Below the pieces are notes generated by a model, which saw nothing but the letters and a program-made list of their open reading frames with translations, had not been told where the DNA came from and did not search any database. This document shows positions 5,874-26,140 of a stretch of DNA of 31,561 bases, in pieces. Numbering within the stretch: the stretch's first letter is position 1; every line of letters begins with the position of its first letter. Position numbers and translations under genes: made by a program. Source of the DNA: a virus; the IMG/VR virus record IMGVR_UViG_3300044691_000352, positions 1-31,561 of that record; one strand, 5' to 3'.

Positions 5874-7946
5874 CTACTGAATCCTGCCCTGCATGATGGC
5901 GCCCTGAAACCGCACGAATGATGGTGCAGCGCTCACCGTGGCCGTCCCTGATCCCGATACCGAGCCAATCGTGGCCGTGATGAGCGAAGTTCCGGTAGCT
6001 ACTCCAGTCACAAGGCCGGTAGAACTGTCCACGGTAGCCTTCGCGGGGGTTGCCGACGACCAGACAGGGCTTGCGCAGAGGCCGGAGGATGAATCAGAGT
6101 AGGTCGAGATGCATGCGGGGGTTGCGGTGCCGCCAGCAGCCACTGACGTGGCTCCGACCGCAATCGAGACGAGGGTAGGGGTAGAGGCTAGCTGAAGTGC
6201 CCCAATGGCAGGAGGATTGGGACGCGTTGCGCCGTTGTAGTCGGTTGGGATTCCGGCAATGGTGACTCCTGCCCCCACGACTGCGCTGGCACCTGACGAC
6301 GGGGCCATGTTGCCAAAGCCGTAGACGTGGTAAGTCTCATCCACTAGGCCGGGGTCAGCACATACCGCCGCAGACTCCCCAGGCATGGGACAAGTCCATG
6401 ACCCCGCATTTAGGTATGAGTTATTTGACCACTGAGATCCAGCATGATACAGCGGGGCAATATTAGCAGAGGAGTTTCCGCCGCCTGCAGCTATGCTATA
6501 GATCGGATTTGAATTAGATCCATGGCCTGCATTGAAGAAGCCGAGGAAAGTATTGTTAACATACTTAAATAATTCAGTCCCCGCCCACGCAGGCCCAGCA
6601 TCGAATGGGTCCATTTCAAGGCCGATGTTTCCATCGGAATAGACCGTGTTGTACTCGAACAGGCTAGTAGTTCCAGGCGGAAGCTCCATTAACACGGCAG
6701 TGTTTCCGGCTCGGCAGAAGTTGCTTAGTTGGGTGTTATACCCCGCTGGAGTTCCGGGAATCGCAGTGTGCAGAGCTCCGCAATTGCCGACAATGAGGCT
6801 GTTTTGGATGATCGGTAAAGCACCGCCTACCTTGTACTGGTTCCCCATGTTTCCATAGGCTAGACCGCGCGTGACAGTCATGCTCGATCCAGGGCCACGG
6901 ATGTGTTTAGCGTCTAGGCCGTCCTGCGTGTTGTAGCTTGCGGTTCCCTGGTCGAAATGCACCTGCCAACCGGGCGAAGGGCTATCTACCGAAGCCGTTC
7001 CGAAGCCATCTCCATATCCACCACTAAGGTCATCCGTACAGTGATTGTATGGAAGTGCATCGACAATGGGGTATTCTTCCTGGCAACCATTCCAGCTAAT
7101 ATCGTAGTTGGTGACATTGAAGATTCCCACGCCCGTAGTGCCATCGGAGTGGTCTGTGTTCCATCCGCTTCCGCCATTGCCAACTAGCTGAATATCAGTA
7201 GCATTCATGGGGCCAGTTGGAGTTCCGAGAATGCCGGTGTTGCCAATGCCATGCACGCGGATATGCTGCAGAGTTATGTCGTGTGAGGCGAGAGCGAAAT
7301 CTATGCCATACTTAGCGAAATCAGGATTTGCCCCACCATTACCACCATCGAAGTCGGTAATGTCTAAGCACACCAAATCCAAAAATAAAGAGTCCGAGAA
7401 ATTGACGCTGGTGAATCTCAGCGGTACTCCGATGTTGATGACATTGTCAACGCCAAAGCCGCCGTGTAATTGCGTGCGGGCAGTTTGGGCAGTGCAGTTT
7501 GCGAAGTTACCACCGCGAATTATAGTATGCTGCGCTGAAGTTCCAGATGGAGGTGCAGGCATACCTGAGTCGTTAACGTCATTGCAAATTCCGCGAGCGT
7601 TGGGAGTGGTCCCGCAACCTGCCGCCGTATCCCATCCGATGCGATAAGTCACTCCGTCCGCAATAGACCCGCGAATGGTCACAATATCCCCGCCTGCGAT
7701 GATCCAGTTATAGCCGGGGTTATTGCCCCCGAATTGCTGAGTTCCGTCCTGCCAGAGAAGGCGCACATCGTTGAAGGCGCATGGCTGGTTGACTCCAGAT
7801 CCTGGATAATCCGCGTCAGCCTGACCATTGCATTGTCCATTGGTGATGTTTGTAGAAAAGCGCGTTCCGCCGAGCGGTCGGACATACCAGTTGGTTTGAG
7901 CGAAGACGGGGAGAGAAGAAAGCAGCAATGCGAGAAGTATTTTCAC
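5874..7946 (-). CDS. Secreted right-handed beta-helix fibre/spike with Big2 domain
   Basis: A 690-residue protein. A Sec signal peptide (MKILLALLLSSLPVFA) with probable cleavage at A16|Q17 is followed by a long pectate-lyase-like parallel beta-helix (about 20-585) rich in Asn, Gly and short repeats such as HDITLQHIRVHGIGN. A Big2 Ig-like domain spans about 589-675 (ATVDSSTGLVTGVATGTSLI). It carries 14 cysteines, unusual for a cytoplasmically assembled tailspike. Beta-helix folds in phages bind or cut surface polysaccharide, and no catalytic residues can be assigned here. It could be a tailspike, a secreted depolymerase or a surface adhesin. The GTG start at 7946 (GTGA overlap with the upstream stop, GAGGT 6 nt away) keeps the whole signal peptide. 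Confidence 0.75.
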   Translation of the reverse strand: MKILLALLLSSLPVFAQTNWYVRPLGGTRFSTNITNGQCNGQADADYPGSGVNQPCAFNDVRLLWQDGTQQFGGNNPGYNWIIAGGDIVTIRGSIADGVTYRIGWDTAAGCGTTPNARGICNDVNDSGMPAPPSGTSAQHTIIRGGNFANCTAQTARTQLHGGFGVDNVINIGVPLRFTSVNFSDSLFLDLVCLDITDFDGGNGGANPDFAKYGIDFALASHDITLQHIRVHGIGNTGILGTPTGPMNATDIQLVGNGGSGWNTDHSDGTTGVGIFNVTNYDISWNGCQEEYPIVDALPYNHCTDDLSGGYGDGFGTASVDSPSPGWQVHFDQGTASYNTQDGLDAKHIRGPGSSMTVTRGLAYGNMGNQYKVGGALPIIQNSLIVGNCGALHTAIPGTPAGYNTQLSNFCRAGNTAVLMELPPGTTSLFEYNTVYSDGNIGLEMDPFDAGPAWAGTELFKYVNNTFLGFFNAGHGSNSNPIYSIAAGGGNSSANIAPLYHAGSQWSNNSYLNAGSWTCPMPGESAAVCADPGLVDETYHVYGFGNMAPSSGASAVVGAGVTIAGIPTDYNGATRPNPPAIGALQLASTPTLVSIAVGATSVAAGGTATPACISTYSDSSSGLCASPVWSSATPAKATVDSSTGLVTGVATGTSLITATIGSVSGSGTATVSAAPSFVRFQGAIMQGRIQ

Positions 7947-13092: not shown

Positions 13093-13740
13093 TTACCTTC
13101 CCGCGTAGGCTTGTGCGCCCGCGCTTGCCAAGCCACCTACTGCACCAAGAGCAGCGCCCAAACCAGTCTGCTTCTGCTGCGATGCCGTACCGTACAGCCC
13201 ACCGTAATTCGAAGCCGCATTAGTATTGCCCTGCACTGAGAGATTGGCCGCTCCGGTTGCATTGGAGTTCAGCATGTTATTGGCGTTCTGGTAATTCGCA
13301 ACCGCTTCTCCGTGCTGCTGGCCGAAGAGGTTGGAGTAATTGTTGCCGTTCTGGGCCGTCTGATCCTGATAAGCTTTGCGCTCCTGGTCGGCGGCGAATC
13401 CTGCCGGACTCGAGCCCATGCCGCGCGAGGCAAGGTTCTGCATCGTGGTGCCGACGGCATCCGAAGCACCCTTAGCGGTCGCGTTGGCCTCGTTGTTGTA
13501 CTCGTTGGCAAAAGAGCCATTTAGTGAAGTGGTGTTTTGCGACGCTGGGTCCAGGTAAGCAGATTCTGTGCCGCCAGCATATTTGTTCGTCGTGGGGTCG
13601 TAGGTTCCGAAGAGCGTAGTACGCGTCTGGTCGCTGAAGGCTTGGTTCTTGGCAGCATTAGCGGCGAGCTGCGCGTCTTGCGCCTGAGCTCCGGTACTTG
13701 CTGCCGCCTGTGTCGTCGGATCTTGCGCCTTCGTTCCCAT
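13093..13740 (-). CDS. Small internal virion protein, Ala/Asn/Gln-rich
   Basis: A 215-residue protein without cysteines, rich in Ala, Asn, Gln and Gly. It includes a segment MQNLASRGMGSSPAGFAA, a pattern (LxxRGMGxS) I know from small podovirus virion proteins placed just before the large ejection proteins. The C-terminus is a Gly/Ala membrane-active-like helix (GAALGAVGGLASAGAQAYAG). The ATG at 13740 has AGGAG 5 nt upstream; an extended frame to 13815 overlaps the preceding gene and has no RBS. Likely role: P22 gp7-like ejection protein (inference from position and composition). Confidence 0.5.
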   Translation of the reverse strand: MGTKAQDPTTQAAASTGAQAQDAQLAANAAKNQAFSDQTRTTLFGTYDPTTNKYAGGTESAYLDPASQNTTSLNGSFANEYNNEANATAKGASDAVGTTMQNLASRGMGSSPAGFAADQERKAYQDQTAQNGNNYSNLFGQQHGEAVANYQNANNMLNSNATGAANLSVQGNTNAASNYGGLYGTASQQKQTGLGAALGAVGGLASAGAQAYAGR

Positions 13741-13748
13741 GTCTTCTC

Positions 13749-14135
13749 CTAGAATCTCTTGATGAAAATGGCTGCGCCCTTGTAGGTTCGTAGCCAGCCC
13801 ATTGCCTTCGCCCACTGCAAAACAGCACGGTTGCGCGTCACGCCAAAGGCGAGATGCACTCCTGTACCGTTCAAATCTCTATTTCCCAGCCATGCGGAGC
13901 AGGCCCGGTAGAGTTCGCGGGTCACTCGGCGGCGGGTCATTTTGTTTTTGACTTCTGGAAACACCGTCATCGGCTCGATTTGCCACACCAGGCGCGCGGC
14001 GATTAACCCGATGATTTTTCCGTCCTGCTCTGCCACCCAGACCGGATTGCCGCGGAGCTCGACTTTCTCTCCTTCGATCCGGCTGTTTAGATACTCGAGT
14101 TCATCGACTCGAGCCGTGCGGATTACGGGGTCCAT
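13749..14135 (-). CDS. GNAT-like protein within the virion gene block
   Basis: A 128-residue protein with an N-acetyltransferase-like order: TARVDELEYLNSR helix, VWVAEQDGKIIGLIAARLVW as paired strands, and a late NRAVLQWAKAMGWLRTYKG helix-strand that matches the GNAT C-terminus. The acetyl-CoA loop, normally Q/RxxGxG/A, is not recognisable around KMTRRRVTRELYRAC, so enzyme activity is doubtful. A GNAT-like fold in this position is reminiscent of T7 gp13-type virion proteins, so a structural role is plausible. It overlaps the 69-residue gene by 13 nt, and its ribosome-binding site is weak. Confidence 0.55.
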   Translation of the reverse strand: MDPVIRTARVDELEYLNSRIEGEKVELRGNPVWVAEQDGKIIGLIAARLVWQIEPMTVFPEVKNKMTRRRVTRELYRACSAWLGNRDLNGTGVHLAFGVTRNRAVLQWAKAMGWLRTYKGAAIFIKRF

Positions 14136-14332
14136 CCCGCCGCGATCATGCGGTTGCGCAATAGTGTGGCCGCCGCGTCCGTATCGGTAAGAATCTGCGC
14201 TATGGCTGCATTCACATCCGGCACGCCGTTCAAATAAAGGGTGTGTGCAGAGACGTTCCCAAAGGAGTCCTGAACGTTCACCATCACCGCGCCGTGCTGT
14301 AGATCAAATGTCCTAGAAAGTTCTTTACTCAT
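14123..14332 (-). CDS. 69-residue protein after the FN3/Hint fibre gene
   Basis: Starts at the ATG of an ATGA junction with the preceding gene; a longer frame to 14458 runs inside that gene and is rejected. The product has two beta strands (FDLQHGAVMVNVQDSFGN), then a helix at PDVNAAIAQILTDTDAAATL. It has no cysteines and no recognised domain. Its coupling to the fibre gene and position before the GNAT-like protein suggest a small virion component or assembly helper. Confidence 0.55.
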   Translation of the reverse strand: MSKELSRTFDLQHGAVMVNVQDSFGNVSAHTLYLNGVPDVNAAIAQILTDTDAAATLLRNRMIAAGWTP

Positions 14333-16212
14333 GGCAAATCCGCCTTTGAATTGTGTATCCGCACCATGCTCGGTCCAGCGTGATAGACCCCGCCTGGGCA
14401 GGTTCGTTTGACCTTTACGCCTTTGCCTTTGCAGTAATCGGCAATGCCGGTGCGCCACAGTCCGCCCTTGACTTCGATCCGATCAAACACCGTCAATTCC
14501 CGCGCCTTTTTGAACACAGAAACCAGCGTATCGGGGTGCATGGAAAGAGGTCCGTCGCCGCAATCAAGGACTATCCAGTCCTCGCAGGGCAAAAGTTCCT
14601 CGATCGTGCCTTCGGGAACCTCCACGATCGTTCCCTCTTCGACGCAGCCGCCGCGATAACCGCCACCGCCACCGGTGGGGCCTCCGCCGCCCGTTACTCC
14701 TGGGCTCCCTCCACCTACCACGGCGACACTTGGGGCTGTCGTGTATCCCGTCCCGCCGTTCGTCACGGTGTAGCTCACGACTCCGCCGCCGCTGATGTTG
14801 CCCGTCGCCTGCGCCCCTGAGCCGCCTCCGCCAGTGAAATTCACGCTCGCCGATCCATAGCCTGAACCTACGGCGCCCGGATTTACCTGAATCACATGGC
14901 CCAGCCCATCAATGACCGCCGTGGCCGTAGCTCCAGACCCTACTACACCCGTCGCGTTGGTCGTGATGAACGTACCGATGTACTCATAGCCGTCTGGAAG
15001 GGTCGAAGGGTAGGTTGTGACTGCAATAAATGCCGTGCCGGTCCAGAGAGCAACGTATTTCGTGGTGTAGGCAAGCCCGCTTATCGTACCGTTCGGTCTG
15101 GTCAGCGTTCCGAAGCCTGTAAGTCTGGTGTAGCTCGTACCGACCCCGCCAGCGCCGTAGATGCGAGCAAGGGCACTTCCGCCAGTGTCGATTGAATCAA
15201 TTGTTGCCGTGTTCGTGGTGTTCGATGGAACGTTCGGCGGGACTGTCGCTGAGGTGAAGAGGATCGTCGGGAAAGCAGGGAGAGACGGAAGGCTATCCCC
15301 CACTGAGTTCGTCGCGATGATGAAATACTCGCCATCCCCCAAGAGGCCGTTCGTGTCGAGATACTGCACCGTGCCTGCCGTGCTGGTAACTGTCGCCAGA
15401 AGGATGGCCGTGAGGAAGCTGTCCCCCCGCTGCGCACGGTAAATCTTGTACGTCGGCCCGGCGTCTAGGCTGGACTGAAAGCTGATCTGGTTTCCGGTTG
15501 CGATCTGCGTAACAAGAACGCCTTGGACTGCTGCCGGGACGGTCGCGGAACCGCTAAGGGTCAGGGTGGTTGTCGGTCCAGATGCTGCCTCCGCGCCTCC
15601 TGCGGATACGCCGATGGCCTTGAGGGTGATCGTCTCACCAGTGGCGTCTAGACTGAACTGGATGGGGCTTCTAGACTGCTGCGAGACTGCCACGAAAGCG
15701 GGGTTTCCGTGGTAGTTCTGCACGTAAATCTTGACGCTGGGCGAAGAGGCCGTGACGTTGACCGTAACGCGAAGCACGCCGTTTGTGATGGCCCCGTGCG
15801 AAGCGGAAATAGAGGTTGCCGGGATGGGTGCGGCTGTCTGTGGGTTCAGGAGGATAGATTGCGGCCCCACCTGCACTAGAGTTCCTGAAGTGCCTTGCGG
15901 AATCAGCCGGATCCAGTAATAAGCCGTTGCCTGCGCCTGCAGTGAAATGCTGGTGTCTGAATAGGTGAAGTCCGCCAGCGCGGGAAACCATGATTGAATC
16001 GCTATGGCCGTGTTCGGGTCGAGGACGTTATTGCGGTAGAGGGCGATTCCCGATATGCCAGTGAGGTCGTTCAGGGTGAAAGTAACGTCGATGCCTGAAG
16101 TGACTGGGTTGGACGCAGCCTTGAAACCAGAGACTGCGTTGGCCGAAATCGTTGGCGAAGATACGATCCGCGCGAGCTGCACCGCCTGAGTTGCACTGAT
16201 GGCCTCACTCAT
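14329..16212 (-). CDS. FN3-type fibre/host-specificity protein with C-terminal Hint-like module
   Basis: A 627-residue protein, probably a distal tail or fibre protein. Residues about 30-320 form two or three FN3-like sandwiches (ISFQSSLDAGPTYKIYRAQR is the clearest). About 430-510 hold the glycine-rich beta repeats common in phage fibres (TVTNGGTGYTTAPSV), then a Gly linker. The last 105 residues begin at Cys523 (CVEEGTIVEV), contain HPDTLVSVF (H559) and ELTVFDRIEV (D577), and end MVRIHN-S with H620 and N621. These match, in order, the N-terminal Cys block, the histidine block and the C-terminal HN of Hint/intein domains, although 99 residues is very short. There is no cysteine before 523. 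The start is the ATG of an ATGA overlap at 16212. Confidence 0.65.
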   Translation of the reverse strand: MSEAISATQAVQLARIVSSPTISANAVSGFKAASNPVTSGIDVTFTLNDLTGISGIALYRNNVLDPNTAIAIQSWFPALADFTYSDTSISLQAQATAYYWIRLIPQGTSGTLVQVGPQSILLNPQTAAPIPATSISASHGAITNGVLRVTVNVTASSPSVKIYVQNYHGNPAFVAVSQQSRSPIQFSLDATGETITLKAIGVSAGGAEAASGPTTTLTLSGSATVPAAVQGVLVTQIATGNQISFQSSLDAGPTYKIYRAQRGDSFLTAILLATVTSTAGTVQYLDTNGLLGDGEYFIIATNSVGDSLPSLPAFPTILFTSATVPPNVPSNTTNTATIDSIDTGGSALARIYGAGGVGTSYTRLTGFGTLTRPNGTISGLAYTTKYVALWTGTAFIAVTTYPSTLPDGYEYIGTFITTNATGVVGSGATATAVIDGLGHVIQVNPGAVGSGYGSASVNFTGGGGSGAQATGNISGGGVVSYTVTNGGTGYTTAPSVAVVGGGSPGVTGGGGPTGGGGGYRGGCVEEGTIVEVPEGTIEELLPCEDWIVLDCGDGPLSMHPDTLVSVFKKARELTVFDRIEVKGGLWRTGIADYCKGKGVKVKRTCPGGVYHAGPSMVRIHNSKADLP

Positions 16213-18176
16213 GGCGTACCCGAGTACATCGCCTTGTGCCACACGATTGTCTTGAGCACGATTTCATCAAACAGGCCACCCGGCATGACCACCGTGAACC
16301 GGATGTAACGGCCCACGTTCAGCCCTTTCACCTGCAGGTCTCCCCTGATGGCATATTGAGACACGCCGTTGGGCGAAGGGACGAGGGAGAGGTTCAGCAA
16401 AATCCATGTCGCAGGATCTTCGGCCGACTCTGAAACCGCAGCATAGACCTTGAAATTAGCAACGGGGCCACCTAGGTCCAACATGGAAATGTCTCCCTGA
16501 AGGAACAGGTCCACCCAGTAAAAGCGCGTCTTGCCTTCCGTCCCCAAAAGCGTCCAAGGGCTGGAAAAGCTCGATTCGTAGAGGTTTCCGTTGTCTTGAA
16601 ATCCATCGGGGAAACGAAAGACATTGCCGCTGGCATCGCCGAGGAAGACGAAGGGCTGATTCGAGACTTTCACGAGAGCCGCGTTGGTCATGCTGCTCGA
16701 AGGGATCTTGTCAGTCTGGTAAAGTCCTCCGATCTGGTTGTAGAAGGAGGACGTGCCGGTAAGCTGGCCGTCGCTCTGCGAGCCCTTTACGGGGATCGAC
16801 CAAATCTGCATGAGGTTCATGTTTGCATCAGGAGCATCCGTAGTCCGCGCGAGGAGCACTAGGATATGCACCTTCCCATAGCTGTACCAGAGAAGTCTTG
16901 CACTGGGGAGGTCGATTGCGCTCAAATCCTCCATGCCGTAAGTGCCGGGGTAGGCCTGCGCAACCCCTGAAGAAATCTCGGTTGGCGTACCGGTTCCATT
17001 CCAAAGCCACAGCCTCTTTGACTGCGATAGGTAGGCAATCCCGAAAGGCGTCTTGCACTGCGCGAATCCTCCCACGGTCCCCGGCTGCGCAACCTCATCC
17101 TGCTCGGTGAAGGTGGTAGCGTCGTAGCCCGCATATTGGTACTTGGAGTCTGCGGTATCGACCGTCAGGACCGCGCCGGTGGGGAGTTTGAGGGTGATGG
17201 CTGCAGTGGCCTGCCGGCTGCCGGCCGGGATGTTGAAGAACAGGCTGAGCGGCCAAGCCTCTTCGGGGATTCCCAAGTTGATTTCGGAGAAGCCTGAGAG
17301 TCTGATTTGGTTCACATTCACCGCCGCCACCCGATTCTGGAAGGTCGTCAGGATGGCAGAGGGAGGGGCCGGGTTGTTGTCGAACGGCGCCAGGCGGGTC
17401 TGGTCGAGGTTGGAGTCCAAAAGAGAATCACCAAAGCTCGTGGTCGCATTCGTGATTTCCGCTGCGAAAAAGAATGTCGAGGAGGTATCAACCGGCGAGT
17501 CCGACGTAGCAAAGATCCACTTGAAATTCACCTGCGGATCGGTCGAAATCGCGATCAAGCCGAGATTCACGACCTGCGACGCGATTGGTCCGGTGTGCGC
17601 AGAAAGTCCGGACGGAGGCCCGATTGAAACCCTCTGAACACCGAGAGAATCGGTGTATTTAGAGACATTGCAGACCACGTAACGGCGTCCGAAGGCCAAA
17701 GTCAGCGTGCCGGGGCTGAGGGAGATGGTAGGAGCGGTAGCGGGTGCAATGATGCCCCACGTGTACTTCGTCAAGACGCCAGCTACATCTACAAAGCGGT
17801 AGGCATTGACGCCGTTGGAGGCGTAGCAGATGAAAGAGTTCTGCACGAATTGAAACGGGACGGATGATTCCCCAGTCGAGAGCACGACCTGATTCGAGCC
17901 ATCCATATTCGAGACGATGAGCTGCGGACCTGAATGGGTCATCAGGAACTGCTTTGCATCAACATTGCGCTCGAAATCGAACTGGCTATAGACCGGACCC
18001 GGGCCAATCTTCGCCACCAGCGTATAGCCCGGTGCGCGCCGGACCTGATTGTCCGCCAGGATCATGATGTTCTTGGCTGAAAGCAGGGTGCCTGGAGTGG
18101 CGTCGGTGAGGTTCTGAGCTGTGTTCTTGCCGGTAAAGGCCGTCATTGTCGCTGGGATCAATCCACGAATTGCCAT
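16209..18176 (-). CDS. Tail nozzle / hub protein, beta-propeller-like
   Basis: A 655-residue beta-rich protein. The N-terminal segment (TPGTLLSAKNIMILADNQVRRAPGYTLV) is typical of P22 gp10-like and T7 gp12-like proteins, where a short 'npGEL...RPGY' lead-in precedes repeated blades. Further blades include FQNRVAAVNVNQIRLSGFSE, GIAYLSQSKRLWLWNGTG and FVFLGDASGNVFRFPDG, and the end (YIRFTVVMPGGLFDEIVL) is a jelly-roll-like stretch. It would plug the tail after DNA packaging. The gene comes after the adaptor and a small gene, with TAATG and ATGA overlaps, in the P22 order. I am fairly sure of the class, not of a homologue. Confidence 0.65.
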   Translation of the reverse strand: MAIRGLIPATMTAFTGKNTAQNLTDATPGTLLSAKNIMILADNQVRRAPGYTLVAKIGPGPVYSQFDFERNVDAKQFLMTHSGPQLIVSNMDGSNQVVLSTGESSVPFQFVQNSFICYASNGVNAYRFVDVAGVLTKYTWGIIAPATAPTISLSPGTLTLAFGRRYVVCNVSKYTDSLGVQRVSIGPPSGLSAHTGPIASQVVNLGLIAISTDPQVNFKWIFATSDSPVDTSSTFFFAAEITNATTSFGDSLLDSNLDQTRLAPFDNNPAPPSAILTTFQNRVAAVNVNQIRLSGFSEINLGIPEEAWPLSLFFNIPAGSRQATAAITLKLPTGAVLTVDTADSKYQYAGYDATTFTEQDEVAQPGTVGGFAQCKTPFGIAYLSQSKRLWLWNGTGTPTEISSGVAQAYPGTYGMEDLSAIDLPSARLLWYSYGKVHILVLLARTTDAPDANMNLMQIWSIPVKGSQSDGQLTGTSSFYNQIGGLYQTDKIPSSSMTNAALVKVSNQPFVFLGDASGNVFRFPDGFQDNGNLYESSFSSPWTLLGTEGKTRFYWVDLFLQGDISMLDLGGPVANFKVYAAVSESAEDPATWILLNLSLVPSPNGVSQYAIRGDLQVKGLNVGRYIRFTVVMPGGLFDEIVLKTIVWHKAMYSGTP

Positions 18177-25396: not shown

Positions 25397-26140
25397 ATGC
25401 AAAAACTTGCTAAGAGGATCGCAAGATCCGGGCTATTCTTCCTGTCGAAGCTAGAGTCGGTATTCGATAATGCTTATCTGAACCATGAAGTGCCGCTCTC
25501 AAAGCGAATTGACGTTTCAGTGCTCCCCGAATACGTAAAGTCCCAAAACGGCAAGAAGCTGCGCGTCCTTGAAATCGGAAGCAGAGAAGTGACCGGCCCG
25601 TCAACAATGCGGGAGAGGTTTTCCGATGCGGAGTATGTTGGTTTCGACATCTACGCTGCCCGCAATGTGGATGTCGTTGGAGACGTGCACCGCCTCTCTT
25701 CTTACTTCGAAGGCGTGGAGAAGTTCGACATCATCTACACGGTTGCCTGCTTTGAGCATTTTGCGATGCCCTGGGTGGTTGCCACCGAAATATCCAAGAT
25801 GCTGAAGGTAGGGGGAGTCGTATGCGTTGCAACTCACTTCTCTTTCAGCGCACATGAAAGGCCGTGGAACTTCTTCCAGTTCAGCGACATGGGACTGCGT
25901 GTCCTGTTCTCGAATGCCCTTGGCTTTGAGTGCATCGACGCTGGCATGTCGAATCCAATCGTTGGCCGATTCTCAAGGCTCGCAGACAAGAATCTCCGCA
26001 ACGTGCCGGTCAGAGGGCTTTACTGTGGCAGTGAGTTTGTAGGACGCAAGGTTCGGGAGGAGCTAGACTTCGACTGGAACAAGGTATCTGTCGGAGACGT
26101 TGTTTCGGGGACAACCTATCCTGCCCCTAGTTGTGGATGA
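25397..26140 (+). CDS. Class I SAM-dependent methyltransferase, cargo gene
   Basis: A 247-residue methyltransferase of the Methyltransf_11/23 kind. The SAM-binding strand is VLEIGSREVTGPS, which lacks the usual GxGxG; the acidic ribose residue is in YVGFDIYAARNVD; motif IV is FDIIYTVACFEHF; then comes LKVGGVVCVATHFSFSAHER. The last part (PWNFFQFSDMGLRVLF) recalls methyltransferases of surface-polysaccharide clusters. The substrate is likely a glycan or envelope molecule, which would fit lysogenic conversion or protection from re-infection (inference). It is rightward in a leftward operon, has its own promoter, and overlaps the fibre gene end by 14 nt. The composition suggests an insertion. 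Confidence 0.75.
   Translation: MQKLAKRIARSGLFFLSKLESVFDNAYLNHEVPLSKRIDVSVLPEYVKSQNGKKLRVLEIGSREVTGPSTMRERFSDAEYVGFDIYAARNVDVVGDVHRLSSYFEGVEKFDIIYTVACFEHFAMPWVVATEISKMLKVGGVVCVATHFSFSAHERPWNFFQFSDMGLRVLFSNALGFECIDAGMSNPIVGRFSRLADKNLRNVPVRGLYCGSEFVGRKVREELDFDWNKVSVGDVVSGTTYPAPSCG

Follow-up and report, generated by a model that had tools for sequence, protein, structure and literature searches.

The Hint (Hedgehog/intein) fold is composed of two related halves, and in Hedgehog proteins Cys1 is preceded by Gly (Gly-Cys). Self-cleaving domains of the endosialidase-chaperone kind are known from tailspikes. According to excerpts of one account of the Hint domains (PMC7664689), the TxxH motif of block B is usual in these domains though not universal, inteins can do without the block B His and withstand many other active-site changes, and Hedgehog proteins use the N-S shift only. 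The A-type BIL domains, as portrayed in excerpts of the same account and of a second one (PMC7664689, PMC7765530), possess Cys1 and a His-Asn (HN) pair, have no conserved nucleophile at position +1, and reside in variable proteins. A Vibrio phage 'hint domain protein' (MG592631) places a Hint domain in the structural gene region, and in the open-licence papers searched no phage tail fibre ending in a Hint domain was found. Here, we describe the C-terminal 105 residues of a predicted phage tail fibre, which probably form a reduced and divergent Hint domain.

The stretch of DNA analysed, referred to as the window, is the whole 31,561-base virus record IMGVR_UViG_3300044691_000352 (IMG/VR). The source phage is a virus of soil bacteria. 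Its structural genes lie on the minus strand and encode a terminase and a major head protein (PHROG matches), a connector-type protein (weak PHROG match) and an SU10-type adaptor (Pfam), followed by a large putative tail protein and then by the predicted fibre; a phage integrase is encoded at 1432-2508 on the plus strand. The large tail protein has its sole match in bacterial genomes on a contig of an Edaphobacter MAG (L021), and the phage hosts are therefore probably Acidobacteriota. A 690-residue protein with a C-terminal Big_2 domain (5874-7946, minus strand) is a possible further surface or fibre protein. Among the virion-type genes lies a GNAT acetyltransferase-like gene (13749-14135, minus strand), which scores barely over the cut-off of Acetyltransf_1; similar GNAT-like genes are also present 3' of the fibre in several relatives. 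A small gene at 14123-14332 on the minus strand overlaps the fibre stop and contains a short Cys-x-x-Cys motif in L006, L020 and L083. On the plus strand, a gene at 25397-26140 that by eye resembles a SAM-dependent methyltransferase adjoins the minus-strand structural genes. In the relative L089, two genes (15472-17183) lie between the large tail protein and a short fibre protein; by eye they resemble a DNA adenine methyltransferase and a PAPS-reductase-type protein.

The protein is predicted to be a fibre because it follows the large tail protein and because PHROG families (virion structural, baseplate wedge) match it, solely within residues 413-518 in the Gly-rich module; the whole protein has no match in Pfam. 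The body, which to our eye resembles Fn3-type repeats, is followed by the Gly-rich module and linker, of which just the Gly linker is kept in L006, and then by the compact C-terminal domain (Table 1). Residues are numbered from the GTG start. An earlier sequence-only reading had counted from an ATG ten codons downstream, so that its residues 523, 559, 620 and 621 correspond to C533, H569, H630 and N631 here. That reading had recognised these four residues as the landmarks of a Hint domain following a Gly-rich linker, and all of them were located in the last 105 residues as described. It had also stated that every cysteine of the protein lies at C533 or beyond it. This is true of the window fibre, whose five cysteines are residues 533, 553, 561, 604 and 615, with none before C533, and of the L021 fibre, but not of two other homologues, which have C65 and C424 (L006) or C358 (L009) outside the domain.

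Table 1. Features of the predicted tail fibre and of the second Hint-like carrier (window coordinates unless a contig is named).
Feature	Position	Strand	Remarks
Predicted tail-fibre gene, 637 aa from GTG	14329..16242	-	ATG at 16212 gives 627 aa
Fibre body, residues 1-425	14968..16242	-	~50% identical in L002 and L006
Gly-rich module and linker, residues 430-532	14647..14955	-	Present in L002 and L021; mostly missing in L006
Compact Hint-like domain, C533 to N631, 99 residues	14350..14646	-	
Block A, CVEEGTIV, with C533 as position 1, after invariant Gly532	14623..14646	-	Cys-to-Cys profile match; C533 codon 14646-14644
HPDT, residues 569-572, in place of block B	14527..14538	-	Invariant in 4/4; aligned with TxxH of five Hint domains
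Closing hairpin and block G, YHAGPSMVRIHN, residues 620-631	14350..14385	-	HN-to-HN profile match
Six-residue tail SKADLP after HN	14332..14349	-	Tail length 5 or 6 across the four members
Hint-like extensions of the second carrier	L083:15667-16038; L085:16990-17361; L087:19358-19732; L089:19555-19929		

Besides the window, the compact domain is carried by three homologous fibres, encoded by the IMG/VR contigs L002 (= L009, L014) and L006 (= L013) and by the Edaphobacter MAG contig L021; these copies are 67, 60 and 50% identical to that of the window. It had been stated beforehand that C533, H569 and N631 should be conserved among homologues, and they are invariant in all four members, as are H630, Gly532, C553 and C615. 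Because 40 of the 112 positions in the four-member alignment are invariant, the conservation of C533, H569, H630 and N631 alone is modest evidence. The Cys-to-Asn span measures 99, 99, 100 and 106 residues in the four members. The residue immediately after HN is S, V, F and V, and the next one is K. A short tail after HN is not special to phages, since the bacterial protein L065 also terminates in a Hint domain and has HNIKIQTM as its last residues.

Judged from the sequence, the domain has the block A and the closing hairpin usual for Hint domains, the hairpin reading YHAGPSMVRIHN in the window fibre and YHVGPLRLRTHN in L060. Block B is a different matter. H569 had been read as the block B His; it is indeed invariant, but the residue three positions before it is L, L, V and V in the four members and the canonical TxxH is thus missing. 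For comparison, Hint/intein loci were gathered by Pfam family from Acidobacteriota genomes and five uninterrupted Hint domains were taken. MAFFT aligned HPDT with the T-x-x-H block of these five domains (TPEH in four and TARH in one), so that H569 falls on their Thr rather than on their His, and its assignment as the block B His is uncertain. Counted from Cys as position 1, the block B His lies at 69-75 in the five Hint domains and at 61 in the Hint domain of the L087 fibre (see below), and HPDT starts at 37-39 in the compact family, which therefore lacks about thirty residues between blocks A and B. When the domain sequence was tested for the internal two-fold repeat that characterises the Hint fold, the outcome was negative, with 203 of 500 shuffles scoring as high.

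The Hint models of Pfam and NCBIfam match neither the window domain nor the other three members, PHROG yields no match for the compact domain, and phmmer finds no match to the window domain among PDB sequences. Profile matches to PDB sequences, such as neuropilin, were rejected as chance hits. PF13403 matched none of the four virus records (0/4), and the fibre did not stand out when a plain Hint HMM was run over the 455 frames of the window. Nor did an HMM built from the compact family recover the collected Hint loci or the Hint domain of L087. The likeness emerges in profile-profile comparison. The four-row family scored 27.7 against the five Hint domains, a value reached by none of 1000 column shuffles (highest 25.3), and the reversed profile scored 7.7. 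Larger Hint alignments, of 44 rows for the N-part and 30 rows for the C-part, were then grown with no compact-family member in either. Against the N-part the family scored 20.4 with Cys matched to Cys, a value attained by 0 of 500 shuffles; against the C-part it scored 16.3 with HN matched to HN, which 2 of 500 shuffles attained. None of 99 overlapping background windows, cut from 14 further proteins encoded by these phages, scored as high in any of the three comparisons (highest 16.4, 18.1 and 10.3), a control that corrects only in part for the domain having been picked by eye for its Hint likeness.

A Hint domain of Pfam level occupies the corresponding place on a homologous fibre, that of phage L087. 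The body of this fibre is recognised by the body profile at E 6.2e-11, and its end scores 28.3 against Pfam Vint (cut-off 27). The L087 domain resembles the compact one in its place after a Gly-rich linker and differs from it in having 113 residues, a retained TPGH, Thr at +1 and the Vint match over cut-off. With the L087 Hint added to the five Hint domains, the match to the compact family ran from Cys1 to HN with a score of 27.9; compared directly, the profiles of the L087 Hint and of the compact family matched weakly, from Cys to Cys, with a score of 15.2 and P 0.066.

The fibre ends were compared in 14 phages, leaving out L017/L080, whose fibre is as in L016, and L015/L078, L084, L086, L090 and L091, which are cut off. 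Four of the 14 (window, L006, L009 and L021) bear the compact domain, one (L087) the Pfam-level Hint, and eight have no Hint on the fibre. Among these eight, the fibre of L020 ends in a Gly-rich stretch and those of L083, L010, L016 and L019 end just after one; L012 has a different C-terminal part, and L085 and L089 have short proteins only, of 154 and 134 residues. In the capsid tree of the 14 phages, the compact domain needs two changes, for example one gain and a loss in L012. The fibre end of L092 (17991-18365) looks Hint-like by eye, with a Cys after a Gly linker and HN near the end; its scores of 15.8 and 16.3 are not significant, no Hint model matches it, and a sixth fibre Hint among the 14 phages is accordingly uncertain. 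In bacteria, a first scan of genome contigs missed L021, which was reached via the neighbouring tail protein. At E 0.01, matches were obtained in 1 of 396 Acidobacteriota genomes drawn at the level of the phylum, 1 of 300 for the family, 1 of 397 for the order and 1 of 62 for the genus; the draws overlap and the match is the same Edaphobacter MAG. A weak match in the Edaphobacter genome (L023) looks like chance. Searching the INPHARED phages by tblastn returned no homologue of the whole fibre and none of the domain, two weak matches being attributed to chance.

AlphaFold2 failed on the family alignment alone (pLDDT 38.7), and no structural match exceeded Z 3.9. After five Hint rows were added to the alignment, the best model reached a pLDDT of 85.9 and a pTM of 0.78, the others scoring 77.8, 54.1, 41.7 and 34.3. 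Because the family alone failed, the Hint model leans on the added rows. In Foldseek, the best 29 PDB matches of this conditional model all belong to inteins, BIL domains or Hedgehog proteins (best E 7.5e-4), with a BIL domain at the top; VIA-align gave Z scores of 12.4 to 6frh, 11.8 to the BIL domain 2lwy and 11.2 to Hedgehog 1at0. Phage proteins in BFVD gave weak Hint-like matches (best E 3.6e-3), one entry being named Fibronectin type III, and many of the BFVD matches are to intein-interrupted proteins, terminases among them. The domain sequence appears to fit the Hint fold well, in a prediction helped by the Hint rows given, and it is from this conditional model that we infer the fold of the window domain. 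Overall, the similarity to Hint domains first claimed from the letters is supported by the profile-profile controls, by the Hint-row-conditional model and by the homologous L087 fibre, which likewise ends in a Hint, there of Pfam level, but not by a direct match to any Hint model.

With A-type BIL domains (2lwy) the compact domain has in common Cys1, HN near the end, the lack of a conserved +1 nucleophile and a setting in variable proteins; the 2lwy chain has 138 residues, whereas the compact family spans 99-106 from Cys to Asn, misses TxxH and sits on a phage fibre end. The conditional model resembles the inteins gp41-1, Mtu RecA and Ssp DnaB in fold (Z 11-12) and in blocks A and G, but the compact domain has no C-extein, no conserved +1 nucleophile and no TxxH. 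The Hedgehog C-terminal domain (1at0) is similar to the model in fold and has a Gly before Cys1; in contrast to it, the compact domain keeps HN and has no sterol-binding region. The domain is therefore described as Hint-like and would be expected to work like a BIL domain, without being called an A-type BIL.

The reading that we favour, at a probability of roughly 0.55, is that a reduced and divergent Hint has been appended to an otherwise complete fibre and that a thioester at Cys533 would release it. After synthesis of the fibre, Cys533 would attack the Gly532-Cys533 bond in an N-S acyl shift, and resolution of the thioester by water or a small nucleophile would let the domain leave. The mature fibre would end ...GGYRGG, and Asn631 may also cyclise, shedding the six-residue tail. 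The chemistry, timing and purpose of the domain are what we infer here; self-cleavage by the predicted domain is plausible. Release would leave an end comparable to those of relatives, because a Gly-rich stretch lies at, or directly before, the end of the fibres of L010, L016, L019, L020 and L083. Protein splicing is very unlikely, since the residue after HN is not a conserved nucleophile (S, V, F, V), the 5 or 6 residues after HN provide no C-extein and TxxH is missing. The sequence-only reading had considered the domain possibly degenerate, which suits the missing canonical TxxH and the +1 position without a conserved nucleophile but not the retention of Cys1 and HN. The missing TxxH does not settle activity, because inteins tolerate many active-site changes, as excerpts of PMC7664689 describe.

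The same departures from the canonical motif are what would be expected under the main rival, which we regard as possible but doubtful: a Hint fold whose chemistry has been lost and which forms the fibre tip, with a role in structure or binding. The considerable loss of length between blocks A and B fits such an inactive tip as well. Fibre ends in this group differ from phage to phage, and variable ends are expected of binding tips. Against loss of the chemistry speak Cys1, the preceding Gly and HN, which stay invariant in all four members at 50-67% identity, and absence of the block B His carries less weight given that inteins tolerate its loss (excerpts of PMC7664689).

A second virion-type protein of these phages bears on the remaining Hint-based readings. 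Homologues of the window protein encoded at 13093-13740 have 211-233 residues in nine of the 14 phages; in L019 the homologue is part of an ORF of 267. In L083, L085, L087 and L089 (4/14), the homologue is extended at its C-terminus by 124-125 residues; the extension starts with Cys, has GFWSLE, GIWSLI, GFWALS or EFWSLE as its last residues and lacks HN. Compared with the five Hint domains by hhalign, the four-row profile of the extensions gave P 5.4e-10, a value that stands without a shuffle control, and a probability of 96.6; single copies remain under the Pfam cut-offs, the best being Hint_2 at E 3.6e-5. The window copy has no extension, and L087 carries both the extension and the fibre Hint. 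Because the second-carrier domains lack HN, Cys1 thioester chemistry is what they and the fibre Hints could share, and transfer to another molecule therefore stays open. In a Hedgehog-like transferase, the Cys533 thioester would hand the glycine end of the fibre to a nucleophile on a virion protein or the host surface, forming a covalent bond. The extensions without HN and the use of the N-S shift only by Hedgehog (excerpts of PMC7664689) speak for such a transfer. We nevertheless consider it improbable, as the analysis turned up neither a partner nor an acceptor; the small gene 3' of the fibre was rejected as a partner because it occurs both with and without the domain (readable in eight of nine phages). 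Less probable again is that the minimal Hint fastens the fibre covalently to a neighbouring virion protein or the host surface, with the Hints of the second protein being the same device.

It is very improbable that the domain is no Hint at all but another small beta-rich Cys module, held together by C553 and C615 or by a metal and resembling the Hint blocks by chance. Such a module would account for the lack of a direct match to any Hint model, for the failure of the structure model without Hint rows and for C553 and C615 being invariant in all four members, yet it would have to explain scores that beat both the shuffle and the background controls and the undoubted Hint at the same place in the L087 fibre. 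An endosialidase-type C-terminal chaperone that cleaves itself (Peptidase_S74) would share the position at the end of a fibre and can practically be dismissed, the Pfam model giving no match to the domain at E up to 10 and the likeness found being to Hint.

If the appended Hint is active, as the favoured reading of a self-releasing domain would have it, it would be among the shortest Hint domains, with 99 residues from Cys to Asn compared with 118-249 for the chains compared, and would show what the Hint fold can lose. The occurrence of Hint or Hint-like domains on the fibre in five of the 14 phages, the sixth being uncertain, and on a second protein in four of the 14 suggests that this phage group makes use of Hint domains at virion protein ends.
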